A model generated the notes under the pieces. That model was given only the letters and a program-made list of their open reading frames with translations. It was not told the origin of the DNA and did not search any database. Shown piece by piece: positions 5,866-21,661 of a DNA stretch of 22,323 nucleotides (position 1 is the first letter of the stretch; every line of letters starts with the position of its first letter). A program made the translations under genes and the position numbers. The stretch comes from a virus, in IMG/VR virus record IMGVR_UViG_3300031784_003120, positions 1 through 22,323 of that record; one strand, given 5' to 3'.

Positions 5866-5880
5866 CTATTATAAATATCA

Positions 5881-7279: not shown

Positions 7280-7281
7280 AA

Positions 7282-7893: not shown

Positions 7894-8144
7894 TATTCCT
7901 CCTCAGTAGTAGTATCTTTTCCTTTTCCTGCAAATTTTTCTAAACCTGCAATACCTAAACTACCTAATGTTACAATAACGAATGAGTTGTAAATATACTC
8001 ATTCAATTTTAACTCATTACCAAAATATCCGGTAATTAAATCAACAAACATTGCGATTGTCATTACTGCAAATGACATGAAACCAATAATAGTTTTTTCA
8101 TTGAAGTCATTTGAATTTTTAAAAATGTCTGTAAACTTTGCCAT
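7893..8144 (-). CDS. Small two-helix membrane protein, possible holin/antiholin
   Basis: 83 residues with two hydrophobic segments at about 18-38 (TIIGFMSFAVMTIAMFVDLI) and 52-68 (YNSFVIVTLGSLGIAGL), an N-terminal polar helix and an acidic C-terminal tail (KDTTTEEE). GGGAG seven bases before the ATG supports the start. It is the first gene of the lysis cassette, after a 45-base gap from the glycan block. Size and topology fit a class II-type holin, but there is no diagnostic motif. The other holin candidate in the cassette is at 6264-6689, so one may be the antiholin. Confidence 0.7.
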   Translation of the reverse strand: MAKFTDIFKNSNDFNEKTIIGFMSFAVMTIAMFVDLITGYFGNELKLNEYIYNSFVIVTLGSLGIAGLEKFAGKGKDTTTEEE

Positions 8145-8189
8145 AAATTCTCCCTTTTTGTATAAATATGTTATAAAAAGAGAAATGCG
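8145..8189 (-). promoter_or_regulatory. Gap with possible promoter for the lysis cassette
   Basis: This 45-base gap, the longest in the window, separates the glycan block from the lysis genes. Read on the minus strand it contains TATAAC and ATATTTATAC, then AAAAAGGGAGAATTT before the ATG. A TTGTAA lies 19 bases upstream of the TATAAC, inside the preceding gene. This could be a sigma70-like promoter, but in DNA this AT-rich such matches are common. There is no hairpin with a U-run, so I see no terminator here. Confidence 0.25.
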
Positions 8190-8963
8190 TTAGTTTACAA
8201 TATACTTATGATTAGTTTCAATATCATGTTTAATATACGAACCCCATTTATATTTAGCATATTCATGTCCATCTGATTCAGATTGTTTTCTTTGTTGTTC
8301 TTTTTCTGCAGTCATTGTAGTTAATGATACAAAATGATAAAAATGACAATTCCATGTTCTGATCATCTTAAGTCCGGAAAGAGAACATTTTAAAAAGAAA
8401 TCCCAATCGGCAACCATTCCTAATTCATAATTTTCATCCCATCCACCTAATCGTATATAATCTAATTTAGACATAAAAATAGGCAATGTAGAACCAGTTT
8501 CTTCTTTTTTATCTCCAGATGCATAATGATAATCAAATAACCAAAATGCTTCTAAATCAAATGTTTTTGGATCTCGACCCAAATCTTCTATTATAAATTG
8601 TTTAAACATACTAGGATATGGTTCAATCTGATTAGGTGTTATAACAGTGCCATCTTCCCAATCATCCTCTAAAGTAGTATCCCAAAATCTAGGAAATACA
8701 TTGTCATCATTTACTATTAATATTTTGTCATGTTTAGCATTGTATACGCCTAGGTTAGTTCCCCGACAAAGACCTTGATTAATTTCTAAATTCAATATAT
8801 CAATTGAATCTTTCCATCGGTCTAAGACCTCTTTATTTAAGTCATAGAAGCCATCTACAACAACTATTATTTGATTTTTATTTTGTTGTCCAGTAATAGC
8901 TGATTTTAAACATAAATCTAAAGCATCTGGGCTTTTATATGTTGGTATAATTACTGATATCAT
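8190..8963 (-). CDS. GT2-family glycosyltransferase
   Basis: 257 residues starting MISVIIPTYKSPDALDLCLK, the classical GT-A N-terminus. The ATG at 8963 forms an ATGA overlap with the upstream stop; an ATG 12 bases earlier lies inside the upstream gene. ILIVNDDNVFP at 81-91 is the metal-binding D-x-D equivalent, and GGWDENYELGMVADWDFF is the acceptor-side motif of GT2 enzymes. It would transfer a nucleotide-activated sugar to a growing glycan in the cytoplasm; donor and acceptor are unknown. The tail YIKHDIETNHKY resembles the end of the glycosyltransferase at 15813-16769 (YYKHDIQTG). Last gene of the glycan block. Confidence 0.85.
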   Translation of the reverse strand: MISVIIPTYKSPDALDLCLKSAITGQQNKNQIIVVVDGFYDLNKEVLDRWKDSIDILNLEINQGLCRGTNLGVYNAKHDKILIVNDDNVFPRFWDTTLEDDWEDGTVITPNQIEPYPSMFKQFIIEDLGRDPKTFDLEAFWLFDYHYASGDKKEETGSTLPIFMSKLDYIRLGGWDENYELGMVADWDFFLKCSLSGLKMIRTWNCHFYHFVSLTTMTAEKEQQRKQSESDGHEYAKYKWGSYIKHDIETNHKYIVN

Positions 8964-9655
8964 ATTGAGGCCCAATTAGTTAATGGAGATAACCATGCAG
9001 TTTCTCCATGGGTTGAATAACCAGGTAATGTCGTTATCAATAATTCATTTAAATTTCTCAATTCTAAAAACATATGAAAATCATTAGGATGAGTTGATGA
9101 TGTATGTTTTCTTAATATCATTTCTGTTCGTTTTAGTGTAGATACTTTAGATGCAAATGTCATTGTAGTACTATTTGTAATCTTCCAATGACATGAATTA
9201 GTTAAATAAACGCGCGTATCTTCAGCTCCACCCTCACAATATGGATTGCCTCCATTTTGCGGACTTAAATATTTATCTGGATGGTCATATAATGCAACGA
9301 ACGAAGCTCCTAATGTAAAACCTTCTTGCAATACATCTGGAGAATAACGTTTATGTAGATAATCATTTTCAACGAAATAAACAATTTCATCATCATTCCA
9401 TTGCAATGCTTTATCTAAAGCTAAATTAAAAGTGCCGGCACCATGGCCTATAGAAACTTTTTCGATATTATCTGGATTAATATAATTTATAATCATATTA
9501 ATAGTATCATCACTACAATTATCTGCAATAACATATATGTCATTAATATGTTCGTAAAATATATTACAAAAATTTCGCAAACATAATTCATTATTAATAT
9601 ATTCTGGCTTTTCTTTTTTATAACCAGCATCTGATATTCTATAGATTATTTTCAT
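8960..9655 (-). CDS. GT-A-type glycosyltransferase-like protein
   Basis: 231 residues. It begins MKIIYRISDAGYKKEKPEY. IYVIADNCSDDT at 40-51 resembles the nucleotide-binding part of GT2 proteins (DNCSDDT), and IVYFVENDYLHK at 91-102 holds the D-x-D-type triad E-N-D. C-terminal HPNDFHMFLELRN and STHGETAWLSP may form the acceptor site. ATGA overlaps at both ends place it firmly in the operon. It is a divergent member and the substrate cannot be read from the sequence. Confidence 0.75.
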   Translation of the reverse strand: MKIIYRISDAGYKKEKPEYINNELCLRNFCNIFYEHINDIYVIADNCSDDTINMIINYINPDNIEKVSIGHGAGTFNLALDKALQWNDDEIVYFVENDYLHKRYSPDVLQEGFTLGASFVALYDHPDKYLSPQNGGNPYCEGGAEDTRVYLTNSCHWKITNSTTMTFASKVSTLKRTEMILRKHTSSTHPNDFHMFLELRNLNELLITTLPGYSTHGETAWLSPLTNWASI

Positions 9656-10668
9656 AACATTGTTTTTATATATTTAACATAATTTTGAGATGATTGAAAT
9701 ACATCGCCTCCAGATATAGTTGTTTGTAAGTATTCATTAAATTTACCATGATCTAGTTGATATTGAATAGAATCAAATATTTGTTGTTTATTTAAATCAA
9801 CTAAGCCTGGATAATGCTCAAATTTGCCAATTTGACCGCAACCTTTAATCAACACTGTAGGAATTCCTAATTGAATTGGTTTAAATGCTAATGTAGATGG
9901 GGCTGATATAACTACTGCGGATTTTGCTATTAAATCATCAATATTTTCTGAATTTGTTATGACTTCACATTCTAATAAATTGTTTACATATGAAATGTCA
10001 TTAACATAATCCGGTTTATCGAGTCTTGTTTTTATTTTTACTTTTATTGGCAAGTTAAACTGTTTAGATAATTCTAATATTCCAGATTCTTGAACAAATC
10101 TTTGATCAAAATTAATAGGAAATATAGATCCGCGGTTTCCTAGGAAATTAGTTATAACTAATATATGTTGGGGTTGAACTACTACATTAACTAATGTGTC
10201 ATTTGCAGGAATGCCACCATTATGAAATTCCATTTTAACAGTATAACTAATACCTGATGCGTCTTTTGTAATATTTTCATTTCCGTGGACATTGCCAATT
10301 ACTTTGATATTTCTATGCTTACATTCATTATAAAAATGTGGAATATTAAATTCTTGCATTTCTCGATTATCATCATAAATTACAAATTTGTATGAATTTA
10401 TGTCAATAAAATTTAATAATGATTCGTGAATACTGTCTCCGTGGAATTTAATTCCAGGCCCTTGTATTACATTATTAAAATACTGATTGTATTTATTAAT
10501 TGCAACAAGCCGCTCATCAATATCACCAACCCATGGGGTATTTAAACTAAATAACCCAACGCAAAACAAATCAATTTCATATTCAATTGATAACAATGGT
10601 ATTATAGGCCAAAGCTTTTCAGCAACTCTATGATTTGTAAATAATAATAATATTTTACTTTTTGACAT
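9652..10668 (-). CDS. GT-B-fold protein, capsule-synthase-like
   Basis: 338 residues. The N-terminal Rossmann half starts SKILLLFTNHRVAEKLWPII. A second half has KVKIKTRLDKPDY at 209-221 and SAVVISAPSTLAFKPIQLG at 250-268, then IPTVLIKG. That last pattern (a strand, S-T-L, then A/F-x-P and a G-x-P) is the nucleotide-sugar site seen in KpsC/KpsS, CDP-glycerol transferases and, more distantly, UDP-GlcNAc 2-epimerases. I favour a glycosyl- or glycerophosphotransferase. A NeuC-like epimerase would suit the neighbouring NeuB, but the NeuC catalytic acids are not recognisable. It overlaps the upstream gene by 14 bases. Confidence 0.65.
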   Translation of the reverse strand: MSKSKILLLFTNHRVAEKLWPIIPLLSIEYEIDLFCVGLFSLNTPWVGDIDERLVAINKYNQYFNNVIQGPGIKFHGDSIHESLLNFIDINSYKFVIYDDNREMQEFNIPHFYNECKHRNIKVIGNVHGNENITKDASGISYTVKMEFHNGGIPANDTLVNVVVQPQHILVITNFLGNRGSIFPINFDQRFVQESGILELSKQFNLPIKVKIKTRLDKPDYVNDISYVNNLLECEVITNSENIDDLIAKSAVVISAPSTLAFKPIQLGIPTVLIKGCGQIGKFEHYPGLVDLNKQQIFDSIQYQLDHGKFNEYLQTTISGGDVFQSSQNYVKYIKTML

Positions 10669-11368
10669 ATCGATTAGATCTAGGTAAACATTTAAATTGA
10701 TCTGTTAATGGCAAATATGTATTTCTATAGTTATGCGAAACAAATGTTTGTTTTAATCCATTAACTTTAACGCCTGGATGTTTCCATAATGAATACATCA
10801 TTGAAATTTGATCTTCTGTATTCCATTTTGCTGTCTCATCAAACCATGTTTTATTAAAATTTCGTATTATTTCGTTATTTCTTCGATATAATATACCATT
10901 TTCATATAAGCTATTGTTTTCTGGATATCCTTGTTGTTGATAATCTAAACCTTGATTAATAATCATCTCCTTAGGATCGCGCGGTGGGTTTCTATTGATA
11001 GTTTCATTTACTTCTTGATATAAGCACGTTCGATCACAATGAAGATGAACTGCTAAATCAAAATCATTCAAATGTAATGAAAATAAATCATGCGGGTCAT
11101 ATGTAAAATAAATTTCATTATCCATCCATAACCATGCATCATATTCGGGTAATAATTCTTCAGGGGATGTTTTGCATTTTCTAGCAGTCCATCGCCCAGA
11201 TCTCCATACATCCATTTTACGTACATCCCAAAAATTGGATTCTAAATAATCACTATTAGTAAACGCAATATAATCTATTCCGTCTTTGTCATGTACATAT
11301 GGTATAAGATCTCCATATAAATAATCCGGGTGATCTGTAAATAATGCTGTATAAACTGCTAATTTCAT
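10655..11368 (-). CDS. DUF616 (TOD1/MUCI70-type) glycosyltransferase-like protein
   Basis: 237 residues starting MKLAVYTALFTDHPDYLYGD; the ATG at 11368 makes an ATGA overlap with the upstream stop, better than the in-frame ATG at 11383. Family features are in order: DYIAFTNSD at 32-40, TARKCKTSPEELLPEYDAWL at 61-80 and WMDNEIYF at 81-88 (D-x-E in place of D-x-D), LAVHLHCDRTCLYQEV at 105-120, and GQLD-like and ENGILYRRN segments further on. DUF616 proteins are linked to polysaccharide synthesis in bacteria and plants. The donor and acceptor are unknown. Confidence 0.8.
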   Translation of the reverse strand: MKLAVYTALFTDHPDYLYGDLIPYVHDKDGIDYIAFTNSDYLESNFWDVRKMDVWRSGRWTARKCKTSPEELLPEYDAWLWMDNEIYFTYDPHDLFSLHLNDFDLAVHLHCDRTCLYQEVNETINRNPPRDPKEMIINQGLDYQQQGYPENNSLYENGILYRRNNEIIRNFNKTWFDETAKWNTEDQISMMYSLWKHPGVKVNGLKQTFVSHNYRNTYLPLTDQFKCLPRSNRYVKK

Positions 11369-12006
11369 GCTAAGCCTTTCCAAGTTGCACCATTACTAGT
11401 CCAATAATGATTAATTTCTATTTTTGGTGTATAAAAAAATGAATATCCAAGTTCAACTTGATCAATAGCCCAATATCTATCTTCTTTGCCTACTAGTTTT
11501 TCATCAAATGGATACTTTGATAAATGTTCTTTAGTATAAAAACAAAATGCATTATGTAAAAAGTATCTGTCTTCAATAGTTGAAAATAAATTAGTAACTT
11601 CTTTAGTTCCAAAATGACTCCAGATATATCTAGGTGTTATTTTTTTACCTCTATATATAGGAGTTTGTTTTCCAAATACTGCTACATGATTTTTTAAACA
11701 AGACTGAACATATTCATAATCCATTTTATGAATCTGAGAATGTGCAGATAAAATTAAAATAATATCATTACTACATCGTTTTACCGCTTCATTAATAGAT
11801 CTACCAGGACTATAATTATCAATATTGAATATTTGTATATTTGTTTTAAGCGAAAATAAATTTACAATTTCTATAGAATCATCATTAGAATTATTATCCA
11901 TAATGATAATTTCCGGATCTTTAAAATGATCGATAACTGATTGAATTGCAAAACCTATATATTCAGATTCATTGCGATTTCTAATTATAACTGAAATTTT
12001 ATCCAT
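11365..12006 (-). CDS. GT2-family glycosyltransferase with SAH in place of DXD
   Basis: 213 residues starting MDKISVIIRNRNESEYIGFA, a GT2 fold. IIIMDNNSNDDSIEI at 33-47 is the nucleotide-binding segment. The expected D-x-D is ILILSAHSQIHK (S87-A88-H89), followed by VAVFGKQTPIYRG. That SAH plus G-(R/K)-Q-x-P pairing marks a GT2 subgroup often annotated as rhamnosyltransferase-like. The ATG at 12006 overlaps the NeuB-like stop by 8 bases (ATGGATAA). Donor unknown; as the immediate neighbour of the nonulosonate synthase it might transfer that sugar (inference). Confidence 0.8.
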   Translation of the reverse strand: MDKISVIIRNRNESEYIGFAIQSVIDHFKDPEIIIMDNNSNDDSIEIVNLFSLKTNIQIFNIDNYSPGRSINEAVKRCSNDIILILSAHSQIHKMDYEYVQSCLKNHVAVFGKQTPIYRGKKITPRYIWSHFGTKEVTNLFSTIEDRYFLHNAFCFYTKEHLSKYPFDEKLVGKEDRYWAIDQVELGYSFFYTPKIEINHYWTSNGATWKGLA

Positions 12007-12796
12007 TAAATCTACCTGCATAATTCGTTCTAGAATCAAATTCTAATTCATTATAACTAGTTCCATGATCTATCATCATATCATGAATATAATTAATATA
12101 TTTACGTAATCCAAGTAATTCATTTGGAAGTATTGCAAACTTATTATCTCTACCTGGAAGATTATTATCGATTGTAAAATGTTTTTCGATAACAACTGCG
12201 CCTAATCCTAATGCAATTTTAGCAGATTCAATTCCTTCAATATGATCGCTATATCCAATTAAATCATGAAGTTGTTTTAACGCAATCATTTTTGGAAGAT
12301 TTGCGATTTCATATTTTCCAGGATATACTGAAACGCAATGCATTAAATATAATGTTGCTTTATTAAAGAAACTTATACTATATTTAATTTCTTCTAATGT
12401 CGATGTACCCGTTGACATAAATACTGTTTCAAAATGATCGTTGCAATATTTAATTAATTCAATATTTCTAGATTCGAAACTAGGTATTTTAACTGAATTA
12501 CATTTTAATTCCGCTAATAGTTTAGCATCTTCAATACTAAAAACTGATGATAAGAAGGAAATATTCATTTCTTTACAATATGAAATTAATTCTTCATGAC
12601 GCTCTTTTGTTAATTCAGCTTGCTCATAAATCTCTCGACGGCCGTCAATATCCCAGTCACCTGTTTTTAATCTAGAAACAGACCAAGTTTGAAATTTAGC
12701 ATAATCAGCTCCGCTCTCTGCAGCAGCTTTAATCATTTCTTTTGCTAAATTCATATCACCACAATGATTCCAACCAATTTCTGCTATTATTCTCAT
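11999..12796 (-). CDS. neuB: NeuB-like nonulosonic acid synthase, SAF domain absent
   Basis: 265 residues, the TIM barrel of the N-acetylneuraminate/legionaminate/pseudaminate synthase family, which condenses PEP with an N-acetyl-hexosamine. Motifs: IAEIGWNHCGD at 4-14, YAKFQ at 32-36, VKIPSFESRN at 102-111, FMSTGTS at 126-132, LMHCVSVYP at 151-159, GYSDH at 181-185, VIEKHFTID at 202-210 and PGRDNKFA at 214-221. Bacterial enzymes run to about 340 residues because an antifreeze-like SAF domain closes the partner's active site; this one stops after the barrel at RTNYAGRFNG. No second SAF ORF is visible nearby. Exact sugar product not determinable. One base separates it from the methyltransferase gene upstream. 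Confidence 0.88.
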   Translation of the reverse strand: MRIIAEIGWNHCGDMNLAKEMIKAAAESGADYAKFQTWSVSRLKTGDWDIDGRREIYEQAELTKERHEELISYCKEMNISFLSSVFSIEDAKLLAELKCNSVKIPSFESRNIELIKYCNDHFETVFMSTGTSTLEEIKYSISFFNKATLYLMHCVSVYPGKYEIANLPKMIALKQLHDLIGYSDHIEGIESAKIALGLGAVVIEKHFTIDNNLPGRDNKFAILPNELLGLRKYINYIHDMMIDHGTSYNELEFDSRTNYAGRFNG

Positions 12797-12797
12797 A

Positions 12798-13385
12798 TTA
12801 TTTTCTTTTTAATAGCCAAATAAAATAGGCATCGGTTTGGTTGCTAGTTGTTTCTAAAATTAAATCATATTTTTGTAAAAATTGATCATAATTGTGAAAT
12901 AGTCTAGGATGTTCCGGTGTTTCGAATTCTTTTTTTAGTTCGCGTAACATAATGTATTTAGGATTCCAATTTTTTAAAATCATTTTGATAATATAATCAG
13001 CCTTTTCATATTGTAAATGCATAAAATGATCTGAAACTAAAAACAAATCTAAATCTTTAATAATATTATTATCGATAATATCTTGCGAGTCTCCTTCATA
13101 AAATGTAATAATATTCTTTATTGACTCAGACATATTATTCTTAGATGATTCCGCAAATAGATCACTACAATAAATGTTATTAGTTTTAAACTCTTCATTA
13201 ATATAATGCAAATTTCTAGCTGGACCTGATCCTAATTCGAAGATCTTTGATTCAGAATTTAAAACATTATGTTGTTTAAGTAGTTTAACTAATTCTTTTG
13301 AATTTTCATGTAATATTGAACTTGCGTTCATTCCTACTGCATTTTGATAATCGGATGGAAACCGTTCTTTTCCAAATTTTGCCAT
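12798..13385 (-). CDS. Class I SAM-dependent methyltransferase-like protein
   Basis: 195 residues. KIFELGSGPARNLHYI at 47-62 is motif I (E-x-G-x-G-P-x-x-N), the SAM-binding loop, and IYCSDLFAES at 71-80 gives the acidic end of the second strand. DLDLFLVSDHFMHLQ and YIMLREL continue the Rossmann order. It sits between neuB-like and neuA-like genes with one-base gaps on both sides, so I infer that it methylates a sugar or intermediate of the nonulosonate pathway, though a protein or lipid target is not excluded. Confidence 0.75.
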   Translation of the reverse strand: MAKFGKERFPSDYQNAVGMNASSILHENSKELVKLLKQHNVLNSESKIFELGSGPARNLHYINEEFKTNNIYCSDLFAESSKNNMSESIKNIITFYEGDSQDIIDNNIIKDLDLFLVSDHFMHLQYEKADYIIKMILKNWNPKYIMLRELKKEFETPEHPRLFHNYDQFLQKYDLILETTSNQTDAYFIWLLKRK

Positions 13386-13386
13386 A

Positions 13387-13950
13387 TTAACCTATTTTTT
13401 GTTCTACTTGTTTTAAATCATCTAAATAATGAATATCAGTTGCAGCATCTTGTATACAACCAATTCTTTTACTAACCATTGAATTTTTTAAATACTCAAA
13501 TTTAAAAATTCTAACAGACCCGCTTCGTTTATATGAAGGATTAATAGTAATTAAATCATCATAATTATTTGAAATCATATAATCAATACATTCGTCTAAT
13601 GTATGAGATCTATCTGGATTATCTGGCTGTAATGCTACAACCAAATCATACTTTCCATCTTCAATTTTACTACAAAATTCAATATATACATCAGTTACTT
13701 CAGCATCTTTTAAAAGATGTTCAGGTCTTGCAGTCCATAATACATCATTTTTCAAAGCAATATCCCATACATCTGGACTTTCTGATGAAACTACAATTGT
13801 AGGGTTATACTTACTTAATTTTGCATATTCAATTGAATATTCAACCATAGGTTTTCCATTTATTCGTTGAATATTTTTATTCTGAAGTCTTGTTGAATCT
13901 AATTTTGTTGGTATTATTACTAATACCTTTAAAGTTTGTTTACTGCCCAC
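13387..13950 (-). CDS. neuA: NeuA-like cytidylyltransferase (CMP-sugar synthetase)
   Basis: 187 residues. VLVIIPTKLDSTRLQNKNIQ at 9-28 is the family's nucleotide-binding loop (R21, K25, N26), with GKPMVEYSIEYAKLS after it. SSESPDVWDIA matches the S-T-(D/E)-x-x-x-I-A-x-x-A region, and VVALQPDNPDRS at 104-115 replaces the usual LQPTSPLR, keeping D110 for metal. It would activate the NeuB product with CTP. It is shorter than the usual 220-230 residues; the C-terminal dimerisation part is reduced. It starts with GTG: GAAAGG lies seven bases before it, and no in-frame ATG occurs near. It overlaps the dehydrogenase by 22 bases. Confidence 0.85.
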   Translation of the reverse strand: MGSKQTLKVLVIIPTKLDSTRLQNKNIQRINGKPMVEYSIEYAKLSKYNPTIVVSSESPDVWDIALKNDVLWTARPEHLLKDAEVTDVYIEFCSKIEDGKYDLVVALQPDNPDRSHTLDECIDYMISNNYDDLITINPSYKRSGSVRIFKFEYLKNSMVSKRIGCIQDAATDIHYLDDLKQVEQKIG

Positions 13951-14873
13951 GTATATGCCTTTCTTTGTCCTTCGCGAGTCATTCCGCCAATATGTGGAGT
14001 AACTATTATATTTTTTTTATTATTCATTGCTATGATTATCGGTGATTTAGTTAAATCATCAAATTCATTTTCTATAACATCAGTTCCATATCCGGATATT
14101 AAATTTTTATCTAGCGCATCGACAATATCATGTTCTTGTACAATTTCTCCGCGTGATGTATTTATAATATAAGGACTATTTTTACATAATCCAAGAAGTT
14201 TATGATCTATCATATATTTAGTTTCATCAGTAACATGTACATGCAATGAAATTACATCAGATGTTTCAAACATATGTTCCAACGTTGTATAATGATTTAA
14301 TAAAAATGAATCTGAAAAATTTTGTTTTTCATATGGATCATAAACTTTTACGTTAGCTCCAAATGCATTACAATATTCGAACATCATTTTTCCTAAACGT
14401 CCATATCCGATTATACCAATATTCAATCCTTTAATTTGCCTGCCTACGAAATTAGTATAGTCCCATTTATATTCAGAAACGTGTTGATTTGCAGTTGGAA
14501 TATTTCTTAATAACGATAACATCAATCCGAATGCTAATTCAGATGTAGATGGCAATTGTTTTATTAATTCATAATCTTTAGTTAAAGAATATATCTTAAT
14601 ATTATTAGAATTACAATATTCTTGATCGATATGATTCATTCCAGTTGAACATGTATTAATTAATGTTACATCAGTACCATTTAATAATTCATGATCAATT
14701 TTATATGTCTGTTGATTTGGATTACAAATTATAGTATCAATTTTTTCTTTTAATAAAAGTTCTCGTACTTCAGCTTTAGATGCAGTTTCATTTAAAAATA
14801 CATCTCCTTTTGTATGTAATATATCTAATATACCATTAATATGCTGGATCGGAGTAATAACCGCTATTTTCAT
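13929..14873 (-). CDS. D-isomer-specific 2-hydroxyacid dehydrogenase
   Basis: 314 residues. NIGIIGYGRLGKMMFEYCNA at 151-170 is the NAD-binding G-x-G-x-x-G, with D179 (VKVYDPYE) closing the second strand. TSRGEIVQEHDIVDAL at 239-254 carries R241, DVIENEFDD holds E270 and VTPHIGGMT carries H294, the catalytic set of the family. It interconverts a 2-oxo acid and a D-2-hydroxy acid with NAD(H). Embedded between neuA-like and epimerase genes, it may make a hydroxy-acid substituent or an oxidised sugar intermediate (inference). I use ATG 14873; a GTG one codon earlier is possible. Overlap of 38 bases with the upstream epimerase. Confidence 0.88.
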   Translation of the reverse strand: MKIAVITPIQHINGILDILHTKGDVFLNETASKAEVRELLLKEKIDTIICNPNQQTYKIDHELLNGTDVTLINTCSTGMNHIDQEYCNSNNIKIYSLTKDYELIKQLPSTSELAFGLMLSLLRNIPTANQHVSEYKWDYTNFVGRQIKGLNIGIIGYGRLGKMMFEYCNAFGANVKVYDPYEKQNFSDSFLLNHYTTLEHMFETSDVISLHVHVTDETKYMIDHKLLGLCKNSPYIINTSRGEIVQEHDIVDALDKNLISGYGTDVIENEFDDLTKSPIIIAMNNKKNIIVTPHIGGMTREGQRKAYTWAVNKL

Positions 14874-15816
14874 CACTATATACCTTGATTATTTCATCTA
14901 TAACTTGATAAGTTGAATAATTTATATTAAAGTTAATTAAGTCTTTTGCTTTAGTCGTATTTGCAAATCGTTTCATGATTTCTTTATAATTTCCAAATAC
15001 TTGTTCTCGATCATCAAAAATTAATTCAGATTTTGAATTGGTTTTAGATATAATATATTCAGCAACTTCTCGTACCGTAGTTTGTTCATCGGTACCTAAA
15101 TTAATAATTTGTCCATTAACTGAATCCATATGTTGTATTAATTTACTTAAACCATATGCAATATCTAATGCGTGACTAATTGATCTGGTTTGCATCCCAT
15201 CTCCATGAATATGAATTGATTCACCTTTCAAAGCTTTATCTACAAATAATGGTATATGGCCACCTGACCAACTTTTATTAGATCTCCAAGATGCACATCC
15301 AAATACTCTAACTACACATCCTTTTAAATCTGATTGTTGAATTTCATTAAAAATAAATTGTTCGCCATACAATTTAGATAACGCATATGAATATCGTTCA
15401 TTGGTAGGCGGACCTATAGTAATTGATTCAGATTCTAAAAATGTTGTAGAATTTCCATATACATCTGATGTTGACGTAAATATTAAAAATGAGCCATTTT
15501 TTACTGCGTCTGATACGACTGTTTCGATCATTTGATAATTTTCCTTTAAAACATCAACTGACTTTATAATACCATTTGCTGGCTTTTTCATTGATGCTAA
15601 ATGATAGATAGCATCAAACTCTTCTTTCCAAAGATTTAAAAATTGTACTTTTGTTTTTTTAAATTGGAAATTTTTATTTTGATGAGCATTTTTTAAATTT
15701 TCAATATTTCCATATGACATATCATCTACGCCTACTACGCTGTGTCCTTGTTCTAATAAAAAATCTACTAAATGACTTGCAATTAAACCTGCAGCCCCCG
15801 TTACTAATATTTTCAT
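14836..15816 (-). CDS. NAD-dependent nucleotide-sugar epimerase/dehydratase (SDR)
   Basis: 326 residues of extended-SDR type. MKILVTGAAGLIASHLVDFL is the nucleotide-binding loop (G-x-x-G-x-x-x-x-H), VVGVDD gives D31/D32, IYHLAS sits at 70-75, LIFTSTSDVYG at 111-121 is the catalytic Ser/Thr strand, and YSYALSKLYGE at 142-152 is the Y144-x-x-x-K148 pair. GDGMQTRSISHALDIA is the substrate/partner loop. It may act as a 4-epimerase, 4,6-dehydratase or UDP-glucuronate decarboxylase; the motifs do not decide. The C-terminal tail (SGYYSDPAY) overlaps the downstream dehydrogenase, which keeps the whole set co-translated. Confidence 0.88.
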   Translation of the reverse strand: MKILVTGAAGLIASHLVDFLLEQGHSVVGVDDMSYGNIENLKNAHQNKNFQFKKTKVQFLNLWKEEFDAIYHLASMKKPANGIIKSVDVLKENYQMIETVVSDAVKNGSFLIFTSTSDVYGNSTTFLESESITIGPPTNERYSYALSKLYGEQFIFNEIQQSDLKGCVVRVFGCASWRSNKSWSGGHIPLFVDKALKGESIHIHGDGMQTRSISHALDIAYGLSKLIQHMDSVNGQIINLGTDEQTTVREVAEYIISKTNSKSELIFDDREQVFGNYKEIMKRFANTTKAKDLINFNINYSTYQVIDEIIKVYSDENSGYYSDPAY

Positions 15817-16769
15817 AATTCGTATTTTCTTAATGGTCCTGTTTGTATATCGTGTTTGTAATATTCTCCAATTAACGTATTATCGTAACTTTGTTTAATT
15901 GATTCAAAAGTATTTGTATTTTCATAATCCCAGCCCCATCTAGAACGCCATGCATTGAAATTTGAATATTTACCAAAATGATATTCATTTCCTGATTTAG
16001 CACCGGTGGCGGAATTAGCATTAATATTGTATTTTTCTTTTAAAAATTGATTATTTAAACAATATAAATTTGTTAATGTTAAACATGGAAAATTTAAATA
16101 ATTAAACTGCATTGCAATATCTGGTAACCATAAATGAAAATGATATTCATTTGTTGGTTTGATATGTTGATTCCATAGTGAAACATTTATACCAACTGCT
16201 GCCCACATTGGAAATTCTGAAATAAATGGTTGATTCCAATTTCCAGAATTAATTAATGTATCTTGTTGTTTAGGACATAACCATCTTCCGGAATTTGATT
16301 GAATTGATAAATGTGCCATTCCAATCATCCCTAAGGGCGTTTCTCCATTATTAAACTTATCTAAACAATCATTAGTATAATCTCCATTATCTAAAACATT
16401 GAATCCGACAATACCAAATTCATTCAATTTTTCTTCTGAGATATATCTAGATAATGTTTTAAAGAAATTTTCAGAAATTGGATATATGTCATGTTGAAAA
16501 CAAACTACCCATTTACATTTTGGTCGATTTTCATTAATAAAATCAATTAATGTTTGCGTTGCCATTTGAACGCCTCGATCTTTATTCTCTAAAAAAACTA
16601 TGTTATTTTCGGAACAATATTGTTTTCCTTTTCGAATTTCATCTTCAGAAGAATTATCATCTACATTAATTAATTCAAATCCTTCGGTGTTGATGTTTTT
16701 AAATACTTCGCCTTTGAGCATATCATAATTATTGCGCGAAGATATGTATATAATTAAATTATCATTCAT
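15813..16769 (-). CDS. GT-A glycosyltransferase-like protein
   Basis: 318 residues. FELINVDDNSSEDEI at 31-45 is the nucleotide-binding segment and WVVCFQHDIYPISENF at 87-102 supplies an H-D in the metal-binding position. A GMIGMAHLSIQ and FPMWAAVGINVSLW region forms the acceptor side. The C-terminus (GEYYKHDIQTGPLRKYEL) resembles that of the glycosyltransferase at 8190-8963, suggesting related enzymes. It ATGA-couples to the epimerase downstream and overlaps the next gene upstream by 8 bases. Substrate unknown. Confidence 0.75.
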   Translation of the reverse strand: MNDNLIIYISSRNNYDMLKGEVFKNINTEGFELINVDDNSSEDEIRKGKQYCSENNIVFLENKDRGVQMATQTLIDFINENRPKCKWVVCFQHDIYPISENFFKTLSRYISEEKLNEFGIVGFNVLDNGDYTNDCLDKFNNGETPLGMIGMAHLSIQSNSGRWLCPKQQDTLINSGNWNQPFISEFPMWAAVGINVSLWNQHIKPTNEYHFHLWLPDIAMQFNYLNFPCLTLTNLYCLNNQFLKEKYNINANSATGAKSGNEYHFGKYSNFNAWRSRWGWDYENTNTFESIKQSYDNTLIGEYYKHDIQTGPLRKYEL

Positions 16770-17622
16770 ATGATCCTATATAGTTTAAAATATAATCTTT
16801 AATATTAAATTTACATTCCCAATTCAATACAGTTTTAGCTAAAGTAGAATCGCAAAGTGTATTAATTGCTTCACCTGGTTTATCATCATCATATACAATA
16901 TAATCATATTCAAACATATTTGCAATTTCTTGTATAGAATAATTTTTACCAGTACCTAATTCAAAAATATGACCCCATGCATTTTTTTTAAAAATCAATA
17001 ATAATGCAAAAACAATGTCATTAACGTGTGTAAAATCTCTACGTTTGGTGCCATCGCCATATATTACTATAGGATGTTTAGTTTCAATAGCATGTTCCCA
17101 TTTTCCAATAACAGTACAATATCCACCCTCTTTAAGATGATGTGGTCCGTATACATTATAAAATCTAGCTACTGATGCATTTAAATTATAATGTTGTTGA
17201 AATAAATCAATTATTTCTTCCCCAATATCTTTGCTAAACGTATATGGGTTCTTAAATTTACCAGAATGATGTGAGCTAGACCCAGCATAAACTAATGGCG
17301 TATTTGTATCTACACAAAATTTCGCAATTTTCATAGTAGATACTGCATTGTTTTCAAAATATTCTACTGGTAAATTAAATGAGGGCTGAATTCTAGCAAT
17401 TGCAGCTAAATGAAATATTATATCAAATGATCCATATTCAGAAAAATCAGATATAGTTAACAAATCTTGTTTAATATAAGTAGCTCCCTCAATATGATTA
17501 CTTTCAAATCCTGTAAAATAATTATCAATTGATATTACATCAAAATTATTTTGAAGTAGTAATTTAATTAAATTGGTTCCGATAAACCCGGCACCGCCAG
17601 TTACTAAAGCTCGTTTTTTCAT
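16762..17622 (-). CDS. GalE/RmlB-type nucleotide-sugar epimerase/dehydratase (SDR)
   Basis: 286 residues. RALVTGGAGFIGTNLIKLLL at 4-23 is the canonical NAD-binding loop, SIDNYFTG at 31-38 ends the second strand, FHLAAIA at 70-76 the fourth, VYAGSSSHHS at 111-120 gives the catalytic serine strand, and PYTFSKDIGEE at 126-136 the Y127-x-x-x-K131 pair. RFYNVYGPHH and GDGTKRRDFTHVNDI are typical of UDP-hexose 4-epimerases and dTDP-glucose 4,6-dehydratases. It is shorter than the usual 310-340 residues. It provides a precursor sugar to the block; the exact reaction is unresolved. Confidence 0.88.
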   Translation of the reverse strand: MKKRALVTGGAGFIGTNLIKLLLQNNFDVISIDNYFTGFESNHIEGATYIKQDLLTISDFSEYGSFDIIFHLAAIARIQPSFNLPVEYFENNAVSTMKIAKFCVDTNTPLVYAGSSSHHSGKFKNPYTFSKDIGEEIIDLFQQHYNLNASVARFYNVYGPHHLKEGGYCTVIGKWEHAIETKHPIVIYGDGTKRRDFTHVNDIVFALLLIFKKNAWGHIFELGTGKNYSIQEIANMFEYDYIVYDDDKPGEAINTLCDSTLAKTVLNWECKFNIKDYILNYIGSYE

Positions 17623-18248
17623 AAAGTATCGTAATATTTGTTTTGTTTTTCTTGTCGATCAATTGTCTTAGGATGATATAAGGCCCATTCTTCTAATAAT
17701 GGCAACATACCATGGTGCTTAAATCCATTTAATACTTCATGGACTCGATTAACCCATTTAATTTCTGGTTTATTTTTATAAATTCGCATCTGCCAATCTG
17801 CCCAATTTACCCAACCCTTTTCATTCACATTCCATCCCCAACGACGAATATGTTCTTCAGTTAATCCTTCAACCGTATTTACCCGCGGTACTCGAATCAT
17901 ATCTGCTAATGGATTTTCTTCTAATAATAATGGAAGATTTTTCATTAAATTTTCATGAGGAATTTCATCTGCATCTATTTGAAAAATCCACGTACCTGAG
18001 CATTTGGATGTTAATAAATTTTTCCAATCTGCGAAATGTCCTCTAAATGAATCTTCAACTAAGTTAATTTGATCATTAGAACTCAATTTATGTAAATAAC
18101 CTAATAATTCAGAAGTAGGTTCATTTTTTGATAAATCTACTAATACTACAATTTCATCTTGTAATCTTTTATGTTCTAACAAGAAAGAAATAAGTCGTTG
18201 TATTTCAATAAATTCATTACATACTGTTATAGCGTAACTTATTTTCAT
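17619..18248 (-). CDS. GT2-family glycosyltransferase (WaaE-like)
   Basis: 209 residues starting MKISYAITVCNEFIEIQRLI. DEIVVLVDLSKNE at 31-43, the loop FRGHFADWKNLL at 68-79, and WIFQIDADEIPHENL at 87-101 with D92-A-D94-E95 as metal site place it near the WaaE/KdtX-like GT2 enzymes that add the first hexose to a core sugar. WADWQMRIYKN and NRVHEVLNG also fit that group. It ATGA-couples to the epimerase downstream; one base separates it from the GT4 gene upstream. Sugar specificity is not readable. Confidence 0.85.
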   Translation of the reverse strand: MKISYAITVCNEFIEIQRLISFLLEHKRLQDEIVVLVDLSKNEPTSELLGYLHKLSSNDQINLVEDSFRGHFADWKNLLTSKCSGTWIFQIDADEIPHENLMKNLPLLLEENPLADMIRVPRVNTVEGLTEEHIRRWGWNVNEKGWVNWADWQMRIYKNKPEIKWVNRVHEVLNGFKHHGMLPLLEEWALYHPKTIDRQEKQNKYYDTL

Positions 18249-18249
18249 G

Positions 18250-19509
18250 TTATACCTTTTGTAACTTAGGTAACTGTAATTTATTTAAATTTGGAAGTTT
18301 TATTTCAACTGGTTTAGGAATTGATTCTAATAATAAATCTAAATCATTAATAAAATTAGAAAAAATCTTTGTAACTGCAGCATCATTAAAATTAGATTTT
18401 GCAAAAAATCTTTGTCGTTTTGCTAATTCTAACCAAGTTTTATAATTTGAGTTAACTTCTCTGAGACAATGAACTGCGTGATTATAATCTGCAGTAAACC
18501 ATTTTGCATTTTTAATTAAAAACTCATTCTGCGCAGATGGATGAATTTCAGTTAATTTTCCATTAACACTGCAAATAAAATCTTTTTTAAGAAAATCAGA
18601 TTGACCGGAATAATGTGGTGCGATAATTGGCTTTGCAGTTGTTGAAAATTCTAACAACGGACGGCCGAAGCCTTCTGCTTTTGTTAATGAATACATTGCT
18701 TTAATCTTTGGGTGCATATACAATGAATTCATTTGTTTATCAGTTAAATCGCCATGTAATATGTATACATTAGGTAATCGATCTGTTTTCTTATATAAAT
18801 TCTTAATTTGTTGTAGTTTTCTTTCAATTTCTAATCGATCGGTAATTGAATATGTAGCACCGCTTGTTTTCAAGATTAATGCTGGTTGATTTTTTTTATT
18901 CTTGAATGCTTCAAAAAATGAATAAACTGCGCCACTGATATTTTTTCTATCTTCTCCCAATTGTCCTTGCAGCCAATGCCCAACTGTCAAATATGCAAAT
19001 GTCTCAGGAATATCATCTAATTCTGATATCATAGATTCATATGTTCCATCATATATAGTTTCATTAAAATATTCTGGAATTACATGAATTTTAGTTGTTA
19101 ATGGTTTATTATGATCGAGTGCAGTCTTTTCAAAAACTTGTTTTGTAAAGTTAGTAGGAACGATAATCATATTCATTGAATTTAATCTATCAATCCACTC
19201 CGGTGGGCATATATCACCCTCTGTACCCGCAGTAACACCTATATTAATTTTTCCAACTGGCTGAAATTCATTAGGAACGGTAATTTGAACCCAGATATCT
19301 GGTTGATCAGATAATGGTAATGGAACTATTCTAGATTTAATTTCATTACTTAATGGAAACGTAAATGGAGTGTGACCCCACGGCAATGAAACTAATTTAA
19401 TATTCCATTCTAAATTTTTATGTGCAATTAATTGTGAAATTACTTCGCGGGCATGATGTCCATAACCCGACTGCGTTGCAACTGGCGATGCTATAACTAC
19501 ATTTGTCAT
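18250..19509 (-). CDS. GT4-family glycosyltransferase
   Basis: 419 residues, GT-B fold. N-terminal SPVATQSGYGHHAREVIS at 8-25 is the glycine-rich donor-domain loop. YLTVGHWLQGQLGEDRKN at 173-190 corresponds to the phosphate-binding (R)K region. KAEGFGRPLLEF at 277-288 contains the E-x7-E signature (E279, E287), and GQSDFL follows. The C-terminal 24 residues are a leucine/lysine/proline tail (KLPNLNKLQLPKLQKV) outside the catalytic fold. Its LPKLQK repeats the N-terminus of the adjacent GT4 gene (MELPKLQKI), so the two proteins may interact or share ancestry. TAATG coupling to that gene. Confidence 0.88.
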   Translation of the reverse strand: MTNVVIASPVATQSGYGHHAREVISQLIAHKNLEWNIKLVSLPWGHTPFTFPLSNEIKSRIVPLPLSDQPDIWVQITVPNEFQPVGKINIGVTAGTEGDICPPEWIDRLNSMNMIIVPTNFTKQVFEKTALDHNKPLTTKIHVIPEYFNETIYDGTYESMISELDDIPETFAYLTVGHWLQGQLGEDRKNISGAVYSFFEAFKNKKNQPALILKTSGATYSITDRLEIERKLQQIKNLYKKTDRLPNVYILHGDLTDKQMNSLYMHPKIKAMYSLTKAEGFGRPLLEFSTTAKPIIAPHYSGQSDFLKKDFICSVNGKLTEIHPSAQNEFLIKNAKWFTADYNHAVHCLREVNSNYKTWLELAKRQRFFAKSNFNDAAVTKIFSNFINDLDLLLESIPKPVEIKLPNLNKLQLPKLQKV

Positions 19510-20996
19510 TATTGTACTATTCCTGTATTTTTATATTTAATATCTTTAAATTCTGTGAATGTATATGATGGACGAGTTTCTTTATTAACCTCAAATAAAT
19601 AATCAATCATATGAATCATCTTTTCACCCATTTGTTCTGCAGTTAAACCATTTTGCATTGCCCATTCTCGGCCAATCATGCCATGCATGAATCTAGTAGC
19701 AAATGGCAAATCATACCAATAACGAATTGCATCAGCTACATCCTCATATCGTACTCGGTCATCGAATATATATGGCGTTTGTGGAGAACCTTGAAGTGAT
19801 CTGTTACTTGGAAATACTGGTTTAGCCCAGTGACCATGTTTTGTAAATCGACCTGTGTGGTTAGTTGCAAATTCACCATCGAAACGAATCCATTCTCCAT
19901 TTTCATCTTCAAAACCACATTGATCTTGTAATCCGCCAGTTACATTATTAATAATCGGCGTACAAGCTAAAATTGCTTCTGTTGAACTTAAACCCCACCC
20001 TTCATTACTAGCAATATTGACAACAACATCTGCTACATTGTACAATGCATTAAGTTCTTCTGTTAATAGTTTTTGTTCTGAAAAGATTATTTTACAATCA
20101 GGTGCTACTGCATTTCTCACTGCAATTAAATCGGTGCCATTTTCATCAACTGCTTGAGTATGCATTACTAGTCCAACTTTATTCTTTTGGTCTTCTGGTA
20201 ATGAATCAACAAACGTTTTAAATGCTAGGATAACATCCCCTGGTTGTTTTCTTCGAATATTTCTATTATTCCAAAATACCATGAAATCAATATCATTTTC
20301 TTTTTTGAATCGATCGTGCATTTTTTTATACATTTCATCATCCAATTTAAGTGGTTTGAATTTATTATGATTCAATCCATGAGGCACATATCCTGTAACT
20401 ATATCATTCCATTTGACATCTGCAGGAACGGCACCTTCATCATAATCTACAACACCAAATCCGTTCTGTTTAAGCACTTCTCTATGGATATTATCAGATT
20501 GCTTACTAATTCCCATAATTAAATCGCAACTACCATAAAATGGTGCATTCCACATTGGATAAGGTAAATCATCCCAAATAGAGTAATAAACTAATGGAAT
20601 ATTATAAGTAGTTTTAATCTCATGTTCTAATGCGTACAACCAAGTCCAATAACGAGGATCAGTAAAATGAAAAATTGCATCTGGTTGTTCTTGGTTAAGC
20701 AACGCAAATAAAATATTGCGATCTCCATAACCTGACCACGGAATCAATTTAACATTGGCATCTGCTACTCCAGTTTCTTGAGCAATTATTTGAGATAAGT
20801 CAATACCTTTACCATGTTCTGGATGTTGTAATGCAGCACCCAATTGTACCCAATCGTAATGGTGAACGGTATTGTAAATGATTTCTTTGCTAATAGTGCC
20901 TATACCAGATGGTAAACGAAAATCATCTGCTAATAACAGAATTTTTTTCTTTTTAGGCTTGTTTGGATCAATTTTTTGTAACTTTGGTAATTCCAT
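19509..20996 (-). CDS. GT4-family glycosyltransferase
   Basis: 495 residues. After a basic N-terminal extension (MELPKLQKIDPNKPKKKK) comes ILLLADDFRLPSGIGTISKE at 19-38, the donor-domain glycine loop. FMVFWNNRNIRRKQPGD at 238-254 supplies the phosphate-binding R/K, and ASNEGWGLSSTEAIL at 329-343 the E-x7-E (E332, E340) followed by VTGGLQDQ. Longer than typical GT4 proteins, with an insertion around 365-410 that contains several aromatics. Start supported by AAAAGGA at proper spacing. It is the first gene of the glycan block and may set its expression level. Confidence 0.88.
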   Translation of the reverse strand: MELPKLQKIDPNKPKKKKILLLADDFRLPSGIGTISKEIIYNTVHHYDWVQLGAALQHPEHGKGIDLSQIIAQETGVADANVKLIPWSGYGDRNILFALLNQEQPDAIFHFTDPRYWTWLYALEHEIKTTYNIPLVYYSIWDDLPYPMWNAPFYGSCDLIMGISKQSDNIHREVLKQNGFGVVDYDEGAVPADVKWNDIVTGYVPHGLNHNKFKPLKLDDEMYKKMHDRFKKENDIDFMVFWNNRNIRRKQPGDVILAFKTFVDSLPEDQKNKVGLVMHTQAVDENGTDLIAVRNAVAPDCKIIFSEQKLLTEELNALYNVADVVVNIASNEGWGLSSTEAILACTPIINNVTGGLQDQCGFEDENGEWIRFDGEFATNHTGRFTKHGHWAKPVFPSNRSLQGSPQTPYIFDDRVRYEDVADAIRYWYDLPFATRFMHGMIGREWAMQNGLTAEQMGEKMIHMIDYLFEVNKETRPSYTFTEFKDIKYKNTGIVQ

Positions 20997-21029
20997 TTAT
21001 TCCTTTTATAACTTTATTATAAATATATA
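20997..21029 (-). promoter_or_regulatory. Possible promoter of the glycan block
   Basis: The 33-base gap upstream of the first GT4 gene has, on the minus strand, TATATATTTATAATAAAG. A perfect TATAAT lies at 21021-21016, about 20 bases before the ATG, then AAAAGGAATAA as Shine-Dalgarno. No convincing -35 is seen at 17 bases. A short leader fits a phage promoter, but the AT content makes chance matches likely. Confidence 0.3.
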
Positions 21030-21434
21030 CTAACCTAGTATAACCACCGGTTTTTCTAGCTTTTTAACATTATTATATGCTGTTTGAAGAACTGGATCTA
21101 ATTTAGATTCATTGTTTAAAATCATCATGTAATCACAACGTTGTGCAATTAATTTCATGCGATGATGTAATTGAGAAAAATGATATGTTTTACCATAATA
21201 TGTTTCTGGCATTGCTGAATACATATTATATCCTGAAAATGAAGGATTAAATTCTTCATATTGCAAACCGAACTCAATGGCATATTTTTTAATCATATGA
21301 TTTGCGCCCTCATTGCCACCGGCGCCAATCACAACCAATTCTTCACTAAACTGTTGTTTCAATCTTTGCAAAGTTTCTTGTACTTTGCGTTTATTCTGCC
21401 AATTCGTATTTCCTATAACTGCTACTCGTTTCAT
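21030..21434 (-). CDS. SLOG-fold (DUF2493/YspA-like) protein
   Basis: 134 residues, a small Rossmann-like protein: MKRVAVIGNTNWQNKRKVQE, then ELVVIGAGGNEGANHMIKKY at 32-51, whose G-A-G-G-N-E-G-A loop resembles the nucleotide-binding G-G-x-x-G-A-(D/N) of SLOG proteins. CDYMMILNNES at 100-110 and the C-terminal KPVVILG complete the fold. SLOG proteins bind nucleotide-derived ligands, and some act in phage-host conflict. No effector domain is fused here, so the role is open. ATGA coupling to the gene upstream. Confidence 0.65.
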   Translation of the reverse strand: MKRVAVIGNTNWQNKRKVQETLQRLKQQFSEELVVIGAGGNEGANHMIKKYAIEFGLQYEEFNPSFSGYNMYSAMPETYYGKTYHFSQLHHRMKLIAQRCDYMMILNNESKLDPVLQTAYNNVKKLEKPVVILG

Positions 21435-21643
21435 AATTTTTCATACAAAAATTTAACGCCTTTGGGCATATAACCATAAACTATTCGAAGTGCTTCTTCT
21501 AATAACTTTTTATTTGCTTTACTTGTCGGGCCATCATGATTTGTACATAATGTATATTCTTGCGTAGTAAAATGCATACCTTGCCAAGTTGAATGATTAC
21601 GCATTTCAAATTGATAAACGTATATGTGCTTATGATGAAACAT
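21431..21643 (-). CDS. Small hypothetical protein (70 aa)
   Basis: Starts MFHHKHIYVYQFEMRNHSTW; histidine-rich at the N-terminus, with a helical C-terminal half (ANKKLLEEALRIVYGYMPKG). An alternative start at residue 14 cannot be excluded because neither ATG has a Shine-Dalgarno. An 18-base gap separates it from the nuclease gene, and ATGA joins it to the SLOG gene. No family recognised. Confidence 0.55.
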   Translation of the reverse strand: MFHHKHIYVYQFEMRNHSTWQGMHFTTQEYTLCTNHDGPTSKANKKLLEEALRIVYGYMPKGVKFLYEKL

Positions 21644-21661
21644 AATATATTATATGAAAAC

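Follow-up and report, generated by a model that had tools for sequence, protein, structure and literature searches.

The window examined here, a stretch of 22,323 bases, is the entire IMG/VR virus record IMGVR_UViG_3300031784_003120. It carries a block of 15 open reading frames (ORFs), all on the minus strand at positions 8190–20996 (hereafter the island), which an initial annotation had read as a phage-encoded glycan pathway. The block is real, and its genes are tightly packed: 11 of the 14 junctions overlap and three have a 1-nt gap, the longer overlaps depending on the start codon chosen. A 56,986-base contig extends the window, two loci of this contig matching it at 99.93% over 20,322 bases and 99.99% over 17,893 bases. 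The extension encodes a thymidylate synthase, FolE, a QueE-like protein, and a gp43-type DNA polymerase; by eye, genes for GroEL and GroES and clamp-loader, helicase, and recombination genes are also present. PolB of this phage matches gp43 polymerases, the best isolate being Microcystis phage Mel-JY01 (44%). The T4 major capsid protein Gp23 was detected in 11 of the 17 related phage records used for family searches (57–298 kb, most of them fragments), and not on the 57-kb contig of the window phage, itself a fragment. The window belongs to a T4-like phage; an origin in a host chromosome is rejected on the basis of the virus record and the polymerase and other replication genes of the contig. 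Megablast of the window against phages returned no match.

Pfam assignments were judged by Pfam's own cut-offs, and absence of a match refers to E 0.01 for Pfam and E 0.001 for PHROG. Three conserved genes head the island: GT4a (19509–20996), GT4b (18250–19509), and a family 2 glycosyltransferase (GT2; 17619–18248, PF00535, 1.1e-8). Both GT4 proteins and the putative methyltransferase described below fall under the Pfam cut-off; the GT4 identity is secured by family profiles against solved GT4 enzymes and by phrog_2170, with chlorovirus B736L (3oy2) matched by the GT4a profile at E 4.2e-14 and by GT4b at E 8.4e-6, and phrog_2170 by GT4b at 3.4e-15. For GT4a, 16 of the 17 phage records gave matches no weaker than E 1.3e-88, and the seventeenth gave one at 1.1e-6. 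In two of four records checked, GT4a is split into two adjacent ORFs (L298 91–1610 in G004; L299 42–1533 in Mel-JY01), in both cases at residues ~192–199 of the window protein, near the presumed GT-B domain boundary.

Behind the head lie two sugar epimerases/dehydratases of the short-chain dehydrogenase/reductase (SDR) type, SDR1 (16762–17622, PF01370, 4.1e-41) and SDR2 (14836–15816, PF01370, 1.8e-37), the latter near the GalE, LegB, and RmlB models, all below cut-off. Then follow a D-2-hydroxyacid dehydrogenase (13929–14876, PF02826, 2-Hacid_dh_C, 3.8e-47), a short NeuA/KdsB-type cytidylyltransferase of 187 residues (13387–13950, PF02348, CTP_transf_3, 1.1e-16), a putative S-adenosylmethionine-dependent methyltransferase (12798–13385, PF08242, 0.0018, below cut-off), and a NeuB of 265 residues (11999–12796, PF03102, 4.5e-60). 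Directly downstream of NeuB is a second GT2 (11365–12039, PF00535, 4.7e-16), succeeded by a glycosyltransferase of the TOD1_MUCI70 family (10655–11383, PF04765, 2.9e-7; phrog_26101), which we take to be the former DUF616. A third GT2 (8190–8975, PF00535, 1.2e-12) closes the island. The matches above cut-off thus confirm the annotated NeuB, NeuA-type protein, hydroxyacid dehydrogenase, and two SDRs, and extend to the three GT2 proteins and the TOD1_MUCI70 protein.

Three island proteins lack any Pfam match. The protein at 15813–16769, which also lacks a PHROG match and has a single NCBIfam match (rhamnosyltransferase) far under cut-off, is predicted to adopt a GT-A fold (AlphaFold2, pLDDT 93.6) nearest to polypeptide GalNAc-transferases (Foldseek, 1xhb, E 4.3e-10; VIA, 6e7i, Z 17.1, root-mean-square deviation 4.1, 257 aligned). 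The protein at 9652–10668, again with no PHROG match, had been called GT-B and capsule-like; the GT-B fold stands (AlphaFold2, pLDDT 91.3), and the closest folds are UDP-GlcNAc 2-epimerases (VIA; NeuC 5zlr, Z 19.9, root-mean-square deviation 3.6, 302 aligned, ahead of MurG 1nlm, Z 17.4, 4.0, 285 aligned). A NeuC-like 2-epimerase is favored by this ranking, but hhalign to 12 NeuC rows gave a probability of 1.4%, and that assignment was dropped; none of 17 family members has a Pfam match and the sequence profile matched nothing in the Protein Data Bank. It is best left as a GT-B fold protein, either a transferase or epimerase-like. The product of 8960–9655 is a weakly assigned putative GT-A glycosyltransferase (SunS at E 0.01 with profile A4), 39% identical to a Mel-JY01 protein. 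The count of nine transferase-type proteins in the initial annotation is therefore fair, with seven supported by fold or family, one an epimerase or transferase, and one weak.

The flanks are also as annotated. Upstream, again on the minus strand, a YspA/cpYpsA-related SLOG protein (21030–21434, PF10686, 4.3e-8) adjoins the head, preceded by a PD-(D/E)XK nuclease (21662–22303, PF12705, 6.2e-10) that starts outside the window and is a 329-residue ORF in L285. Across 80 anchored loci, the SLOG protein was counted 79 times within the three genes preceding GT4a. Downstream, beyond an intergenic junction (8145–8189), positions 6264–8144 encode on the same strand a small membrane protein, a chitinase/GH19-type endolysin, a lysis-associated protein, and a holin, with matches to phrog_181 (1.4e-63), phrog_3000 and phrog_33083, and phrog_199 (3.4e-4); ORF 7893–8144 has no PHROG match.

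Exchange of the island between fixed flanks

Relatives were gathered through NeuB (22 loci), the endolysin (best 80 of 597), GT4a (best 80 of 331), and the dehydrogenase (16). Their comparison bears out the suggestion that the block is swappable. Two relatives (L034/L189 and L025/L195) encode a nuclease with 99.5% amino acid identity to that of the window, a GT4a with 91 and 84%, and an endolysin with 98 and 99%, yet have no nucleotide match to the window between ~8183 and ~17630. On the head side, similarity to both stops at 17626–17640, inside the head GT2. On the lysis side, all 22 matches with at least 800 bp beyond stop at 8126–8183, nine of them exactly at 8183, though several of these matches come from loci closely related to each other and do not count as separate events. 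The converse case was also found: in L003, L004, and L005 the core, SDR2 through the GT-B gene, is retained at 83–97% amino acid identity, with the leading genes at 57–81%, and L004 matches the window in nucleotide sequence at 89.9% over 8331–18048 and at 75.2% over 18484–22297.

An island was taken to run from GT4a to a lysis-side gene or, failing that, to where the locus stops. With near-duplicates and islands of fewer than six genes removed, 50 of 102 islands were kept; 10 are closed by a lysis-side gene, and 40 are open there and may be partial. These 50 hold 625 proteins of at least 100 residues in 190 families, 96 of which occur in one island each. GT4a is present by construction, GT4b in all 50, the head GT2 in 46, and the next family in 14. 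NeuB occurs in 11 of the 50, a share inflated by the inclusion of NeuB- and dehydrogenase-anchored loci; of 41 GT4a-anchored loci that extend 8 kb or more downstream, near-duplicates included, three have the same cassette as the window and five more have another NeuB type (31–32%). One replacement island encodes an RmlC-like isomerase, two SDRs, a SIS-domain protein, another CTP_transf_3 protein, an FAA-hydrolase-family protein, and a methyltransferase, a set that may constitute a second ulosonic-type route. Sugar genes are thus exchanged here as a block while their neighbors stay fixed. In this respect the locus is akin to a bacterial capsule or O-antigen locus, in which conserved flanks likewise enclose an exchangeable middle, but it lacks predicted polytopic membrane proteins.

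The probable ulosonic acid cassette

The NeuB of the window matches PF03102 with 203.5 bits against a cut-off of 22.1, over positions 1–236 of 241. Nine residues, E6, K34, K103, S128, Y158, H185, E204, H206, and D217, are invariant in all 16 rows of alignment A1 and align with positions that we take to form the phosphoenolpyruvate, metal, and substrate site of Neisseria NeuB; in pairwise alignment, Ser156 stands where the Neisseria enzyme 2wqp has Asn. The protein comprises the catalytic barrel only: PF03102 was its sole match at E 0.01 and the equivalog profile covered 2–266 of 329, with no SAF (antifreeze-like) domain. Its 265 residues compare with 290–385 in solved relatives, as do the 187 of NeuA (61.7 bits against a CTP_transf_3 cut-off of 22.6) with 248–264. 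The best solved NeuB match, 6ncs, is itself a short chain of 290 residues, so loss of the SAF domain need not be new.

In a tree of 106 NeuB sequences, with midpoint rooting used for display alone and with some long branches, 31 SAF-less NeuBs, all of fewer than 300 residues, form one supported group (100/100). This group unites sequences from SAR86, Pelagibacteraceae, another alphaproteobacterium, and a Desulfobacterales genome, two NeuBs of viral contig L023, and 21 phage sequences that themselves form a supported group (100/100). Four further short NeuBs fall elsewhere, and the label "short" therefore requires four changes on the tree; two of the four represent a second, unrelated phage NeuB type (L214 and L254; 276 residues, about 31% identity), carried by other islands of the same lineage. 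Contig L023 (297 kb; best GT4a match only E 1.1e-6) encodes, around 10001–10783, two tandem SAF-less NeuBs, a dehydrogenase, and a 236-residue NeuA.

A census of 23 distinct SAF-less NeuBs of viral contigs revealed a constant neighborhood. Within six genes, the dehydrogenase accompanies all 23 (one at 25% identity), NeuA 22, and the methyltransferase, an optional member, nine. A GT2 adjoins NeuB in 20, the exceptions being one locus end and the two L023 paralogs. Wherever dehydrogenase, NeuA, and NeuB are all present they occur in that order (22 of 22 loci), across NeuB identities of 46–100%. The dehydrogenase retains R242, E271, and H295 in all 18 rows of alignment A8. The adjacent GT2 belongs to a subfamily with SxH at the DxD position and with KEDR-W and TWK invariant in 18 of 18 rows (A5), and is a candidate ulosonosyltransferase.

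These regularities bear on the possibility that the island has no dedicated function and consists of bacterial polysaccharide genes acquired as filler for headful packaging. A "stuffer DNA" option of this kind was raised for cyanophage lipopolysaccharide (LPS) genes, according to excerpts of PMC3037559; here, however, NeuB and the dehydrogenase retain their catalytic residues, the cassette order is kept in every complete locus, coding is gap-free, and none of the 604 genes of at least 150 residues in the 50 islands lies on the opposite strand. We regard filler as very improbable.

The same four activities adjoin in some bacteria. Around eight bacterial SAF-less NeuBs, the six-gene test found the dehydrogenase in four, NeuA in three, and the GT2 in four; all three neighbors were present in L109 (SAR86), L110 (an alphaproteobacterium; dehydrogenase only 24% identical, genes on both strands), and L111 (Desulfobacterales; GT2 only 25%). 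The L109 and L111 loci share 45–46% identity in NeuB and 39–40% in the dehydrogenase with the window. They differ from it in their longer NeuA proteins (255 and 242 residues) and in their surroundings, with an ABC transporter beside the cassette in L109 and Wzx/Wzy-type genes in L111.

Two parts of the initial annotation are not supported at this point. The gene set had been called complete, and family scans of the block recognized no 2-epimerase, phosphatase, aminotransferase, or N-acyltransferase. The product had been given as a nonulosonic acid, and NeuB, besides lacking the SAF domain, scores far under the synthase equivalogs for N-acetylneuraminic acid and pseudaminic acid (TIGR03569, 207 versus 400 bits; TIGR03586, 169 versus 340 bits). 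Judged from sequence, the product is best called a 3-deoxy-ulosonic acid, at class level only. In the route that we propose, SAF-less NeuB would condense phosphoenolpyruvate with a sugar aldehyde, the precursor would be tailored by the dehydrogenase and SDRs, activation of the ulosonic acid would fall to the short NeuA, and its transfer to the SxH-type GT2. The dehydrogenase is guessed to act on a precursor or substituent, because reduction of the NeuB product would be counterproductive.

Membrane proteins and the target of the glycan

The initial annotation noted no transporter, flippase, or polymerase in the block, and this extends to the 50 related islands and the 17 phage records. With membrane segments predicted by a simple hydropathy rule, 602 of the 625 island proteins have none, 22 have one, one has two, and none has three or more; in the window, the GT-B protein and SDR1 score one segment each, and both look soluble. 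Polytopic membrane proteins such as flippases, permeases, and polymerases, which typify capsule and O-antigen loci, were thus found by hydropathy in none of the 50 islands. Profiles for the initiating sugar transferase (PF02397), Wzx (PF01943), and the ABC2 permease (PF01061) matched none of the 17 phage records, mostly fragments, with controls positive. Serotype-converting gtr-type clusters have membrane proteins of the GtrA/GtrB type; no protein with at least three segments occurs in the block or the 50 islands, no GtrA or GtrB profile having been run. Among 80 bacterial NeuB loci, 65 of 1046 proteins, spread over 40 loci, have at least four predicted segments. Bacterial L111 encodes a Wzx-type protein (PF13440), an acyltransferase, and a weakly Wzy_C-like protein with 11, 8, and 8 segments, and six of the eight bacterial SAF-less loci have a protein with at least three segments, the other two (L107 and L121) having none.

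Virus-encoded soluble transferases together with sugar-nucleotide enzymes are a trait of virion-glycosylation machineries that the island shares, and direct cytoplasmic glycosylation of phage proteins, as the initial annotation suggested, is our best inference. We consider it somewhat more probable than its alternatives taken together that the island is a glycan ("glycotype") locus of a T4-like myovirus lineage, whose soluble enzymes glycosylate a virion protein. Initiation of the glycan is most likely the task of the conserved, soluble GT4a, GT4b, and GT2, acting in the cytosol with a virion protein as the probable acceptor; the exchangeable genes that follow would make activated sugars and lengthen the chain, which in the window phage most likely includes a 3-deoxy-ulosonic acid activated with cytidine monophosphate (CMP). 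Exchange of the locus middle by recombination in the conserved flanks would switch the glycan type, with evasion of surface-reading defenses, grazers, or antibodies, or the tuning of adsorption, as possible benefits. Gene content, conservation of the cassette, exchange of the island, and the lack of predicted polytopic membrane proteins are results of computation; the enzyme activities, the sugar, the acceptor, and the benefit are read from them.

A virion acceptor ranks first because the enzymes are soluble, the head is common to phages of varied hosts, the heads are akin to a chlorovirus protein, and the protein at 15813–16769 is modeled with a fold near protein O-glycosyltransferases; that fold favors a virion protein as target, though a fold alone shows no function. 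Phages whose recorded hosts are Flavobacterium, Microcystis, and Rhodothermus share the GT4 heads (the Rhodothermus pair at 28 and 23% identity), and a phage-borne acceptor fits this distribution better than a host-specific one.

Alternatively, the island could remodel the host surface (O-antigen, capsule, or lipooligosaccharide), excluding competitors or the re-adsorption of progeny. Lipid-linked precursors of the host would then be lengthened by phage enzymes at the cytosolic face, with host machinery performing the export. Excerpts of published work give such a reading for cyanophage and jumbo-phage clusters (PMC3037559, PMC7824862) and for the hypervariable glycosyltransferases of pelagimyophages (PMC7029224). 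The same cassette sits in polysaccharide-type loci in bacteria, and soluble enzymes can act on host lipid-linked precursors. Set against this are the 50 islands free of predicted polytopic membrane proteins, the 17 records without initiating transferase, Wzx, or ABC2 permease, and the sharing of GT4 heads by phages of unrelated recorded hosts, whose acceptors would differ. The island also adjoins the lysis genes, and a surface change would come late if the two were on a shared transcript. We hold this alternative to be unlikely. Promoter and terminator searches of the window returned nothing over chance: six matches to TATAAATA, which we take to be the T4-type late promoter motif, versus 7.4 expected; 86 sigma-70 matches versus 114.5 in shuffles; and seven terminators versus 5.2 (standard deviation 2.2).

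A second alternative places the glycan on phage DNA bases as an anti-restriction hypermodification. T4-like phages glycosylate DNA, and 7-deazaguanine-type genes occur in the lineage, with FolE in 10 of the 17 records, DpdA annotated in phage immuto, and QueE-like and FolE genes at 5308–6126 and 6901–7608 of L286, in the extension of the window phage. In the consulted part of PMC7354516, the sugar genes of phage YerA41 are read as making sugar-modified nucleotides. These 7-deazaguanine genes, however, are not part of the island. How many transferases there are, and how they turn over, is more in keeping with an oligosaccharide exposed at a surface than with a modified base. The thymidylate synthase-family gene of the window phage passes the thymidylate synthase cut-off of TIGR03284, whereby a role as dCMP hydroxymethylase was rejected, and no hydroxymethylase is evident in its 57 kb. 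A search for DpdA with PF01702 found none of the 17 records over cut-off; this profile also misses the annotated DpdA of immuto and is uninformative. DNA as the target appears improbable.

Several observations weigh against glycosylation of the virion as we propose it. The glycan, its acceptor, and the enzyme activities are predictions from gene content, and soluble transferases could use host lipid-linked precursors, with host flippases exporting the product. The function of chlorovirus B736L is unsettled in the excerpts of reviews consulted, and the Protein Data Bank samples proteins unevenly. In RM378 no island accompanies the GT4 pair, and the loci counted at the break points are partly close relatives. 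Within the cassette, one of the 23 viral loci (L017) lacks NeuA and has the dehydrogenase match at only 25%, while by the same six-gene test four of eight bacterial SAF-less NeuBs have no nearby dehydrogenase and five no NeuA. All 17 phage NeuA rows lack a segment of 36–38 residues present in all four bacterial rows (A7), and the short NeuA has DIH where the bacterial rows have NID, presumably the metal motif; CMP activation is therefore uncertain. Family scans of the block proteins recognized no enzyme for the NeuB substrate.

Other features of the window phage lie outside the island. Positions 4190–4657 encode a Ser/Thr/Gly-rich, repeat-like protein of 155 residues with weak matches to PHROGs that have no assigned function, a possible fiber or glycan acceptor candidate, and 4822–5865 a 347-residue protein (phrog_36119, likewise without assigned function, 1.8e-42) that is nucleotidyltransferase-like by eye. 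A ClpS family protein at 541–801 (PF02617, 3.8e-15), with relatives at about 45% in L025 and L034, is an adaptor of the host Clp protease and may redirect host proteolysis. Taken together, the window phage and one relative have 242 minus-strand ORFs, of which 13 start with a leader of the type M-(I/K)-(R/K)-L-x-x-L-L-x-E, where shuffled N-termini would give 0.8; these include window ORFs 1013–1897, 1897–2229, and 3298–3714 and others in L284, L287, L289, L291, and L293. The leader starts none of the 625 island proteins, 4 of 1143 bacterial ORFs (3.9 expected), and 6 of 167 in immuto (0.6 expected), some of these not leader-like. It resembles the T4 capsid-targeting sequence and may mark packaged, ejected proteins.

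Relation to known systems and significance

The closest cultured counterpart is the island of Flavobacterium phage immuto (MW353176). As in the window, a PD-(D/E)XK nuclease is followed by GT4a, GT4b, and GT2 (48, 46, and 61% identity) and by sugar-enzyme and glycosyltransferase genes, with a chitinase and holin nearby; unlike in the window, the latter lie upstream of the nuclease instead of behind the island, no NeuB match was found, NeuA and hydroxyacid dehydrogenase are not annotated, and WecE-type aminotransferases are present instead. In excerpts of the literature on T4-like phages, the LPS clusters of cyanophages P-SSM2 and S-SSM7 and the host recognition cluster of pelagimyophages are likewise large, variable assemblies of glycosyltransferase and sugar-enzyme genes, but they lie near hli03, phoH, or tail fibers and are read as host surface modification. 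A tblastn search with GT4a retrieved eight phage records, including Mel-JY01 and, weakly, S-EIVl, and no phage of the P-SSM2 type.

Among virion-glycosylation systems, chloroviruses also encode their own transferases, most of them without membrane segments according to the part of PMC5408694 consulted. B736L, the best solved match of the GT4 heads, is a chlorovirus protein; chloroviruses differ in being eukaryotic viruses with known glycan structures, whereas the glycan proposed here is predicted from genes. Mycobacteriophage glycosyltransferases are reported to modify capsid or tail proteins (Freeman 2023, as cited in excerpts of PMC10877033 and PMC11256854). Acinetobacter prophage enzymes (PMC12053666, PMC6586298) are phage-encoded and act on nonulosonic acids, but they modify a host capsule sugar, and the excerpts of these reports describe no synthesis cassette. 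A phage-encoded NeuB synthesis cassette was likewise absent from titles and abstracts of the open literature searched, within the terms used.

Variable sugar clusters in T4-like phages are known; the variant described here combines a fixed locus, a conserved head, the exchange of cassettes, and an uncommon ulosonic cassette. We tentatively suggest, at somewhat less than even confidence, that these phages have serotypes: a polymorphic, acidic virion coat bearing ulosonic acid would be built by soluble enzymes only and type-switched by exchange of the locus middle, and the cassette shared with SAR86 and related marine bacteria would represent an undescribed route to a new ulosonic acid.

Marine phage sugar clusters have long been described and may act on either the host or the virion. 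This lineage offers a clean test case: the locus is fixed, begins with conserved transferases, and encodes no predicted polytopic membrane proteins, and a relative with the same head, immuto (on Flavobacterium sp. LMO8), is in culture. If the glycan resides on virions, phages would possess antigenic types replaced over time through the exchange of cassettes, and this would affect adsorption, grazing, phage ecology, and how immune systems recognize phages. In marine bacteria such as SAR86 and relatives of SAR11, the cassette further hints at enzymes for making an uncharacterized acidic sugar.

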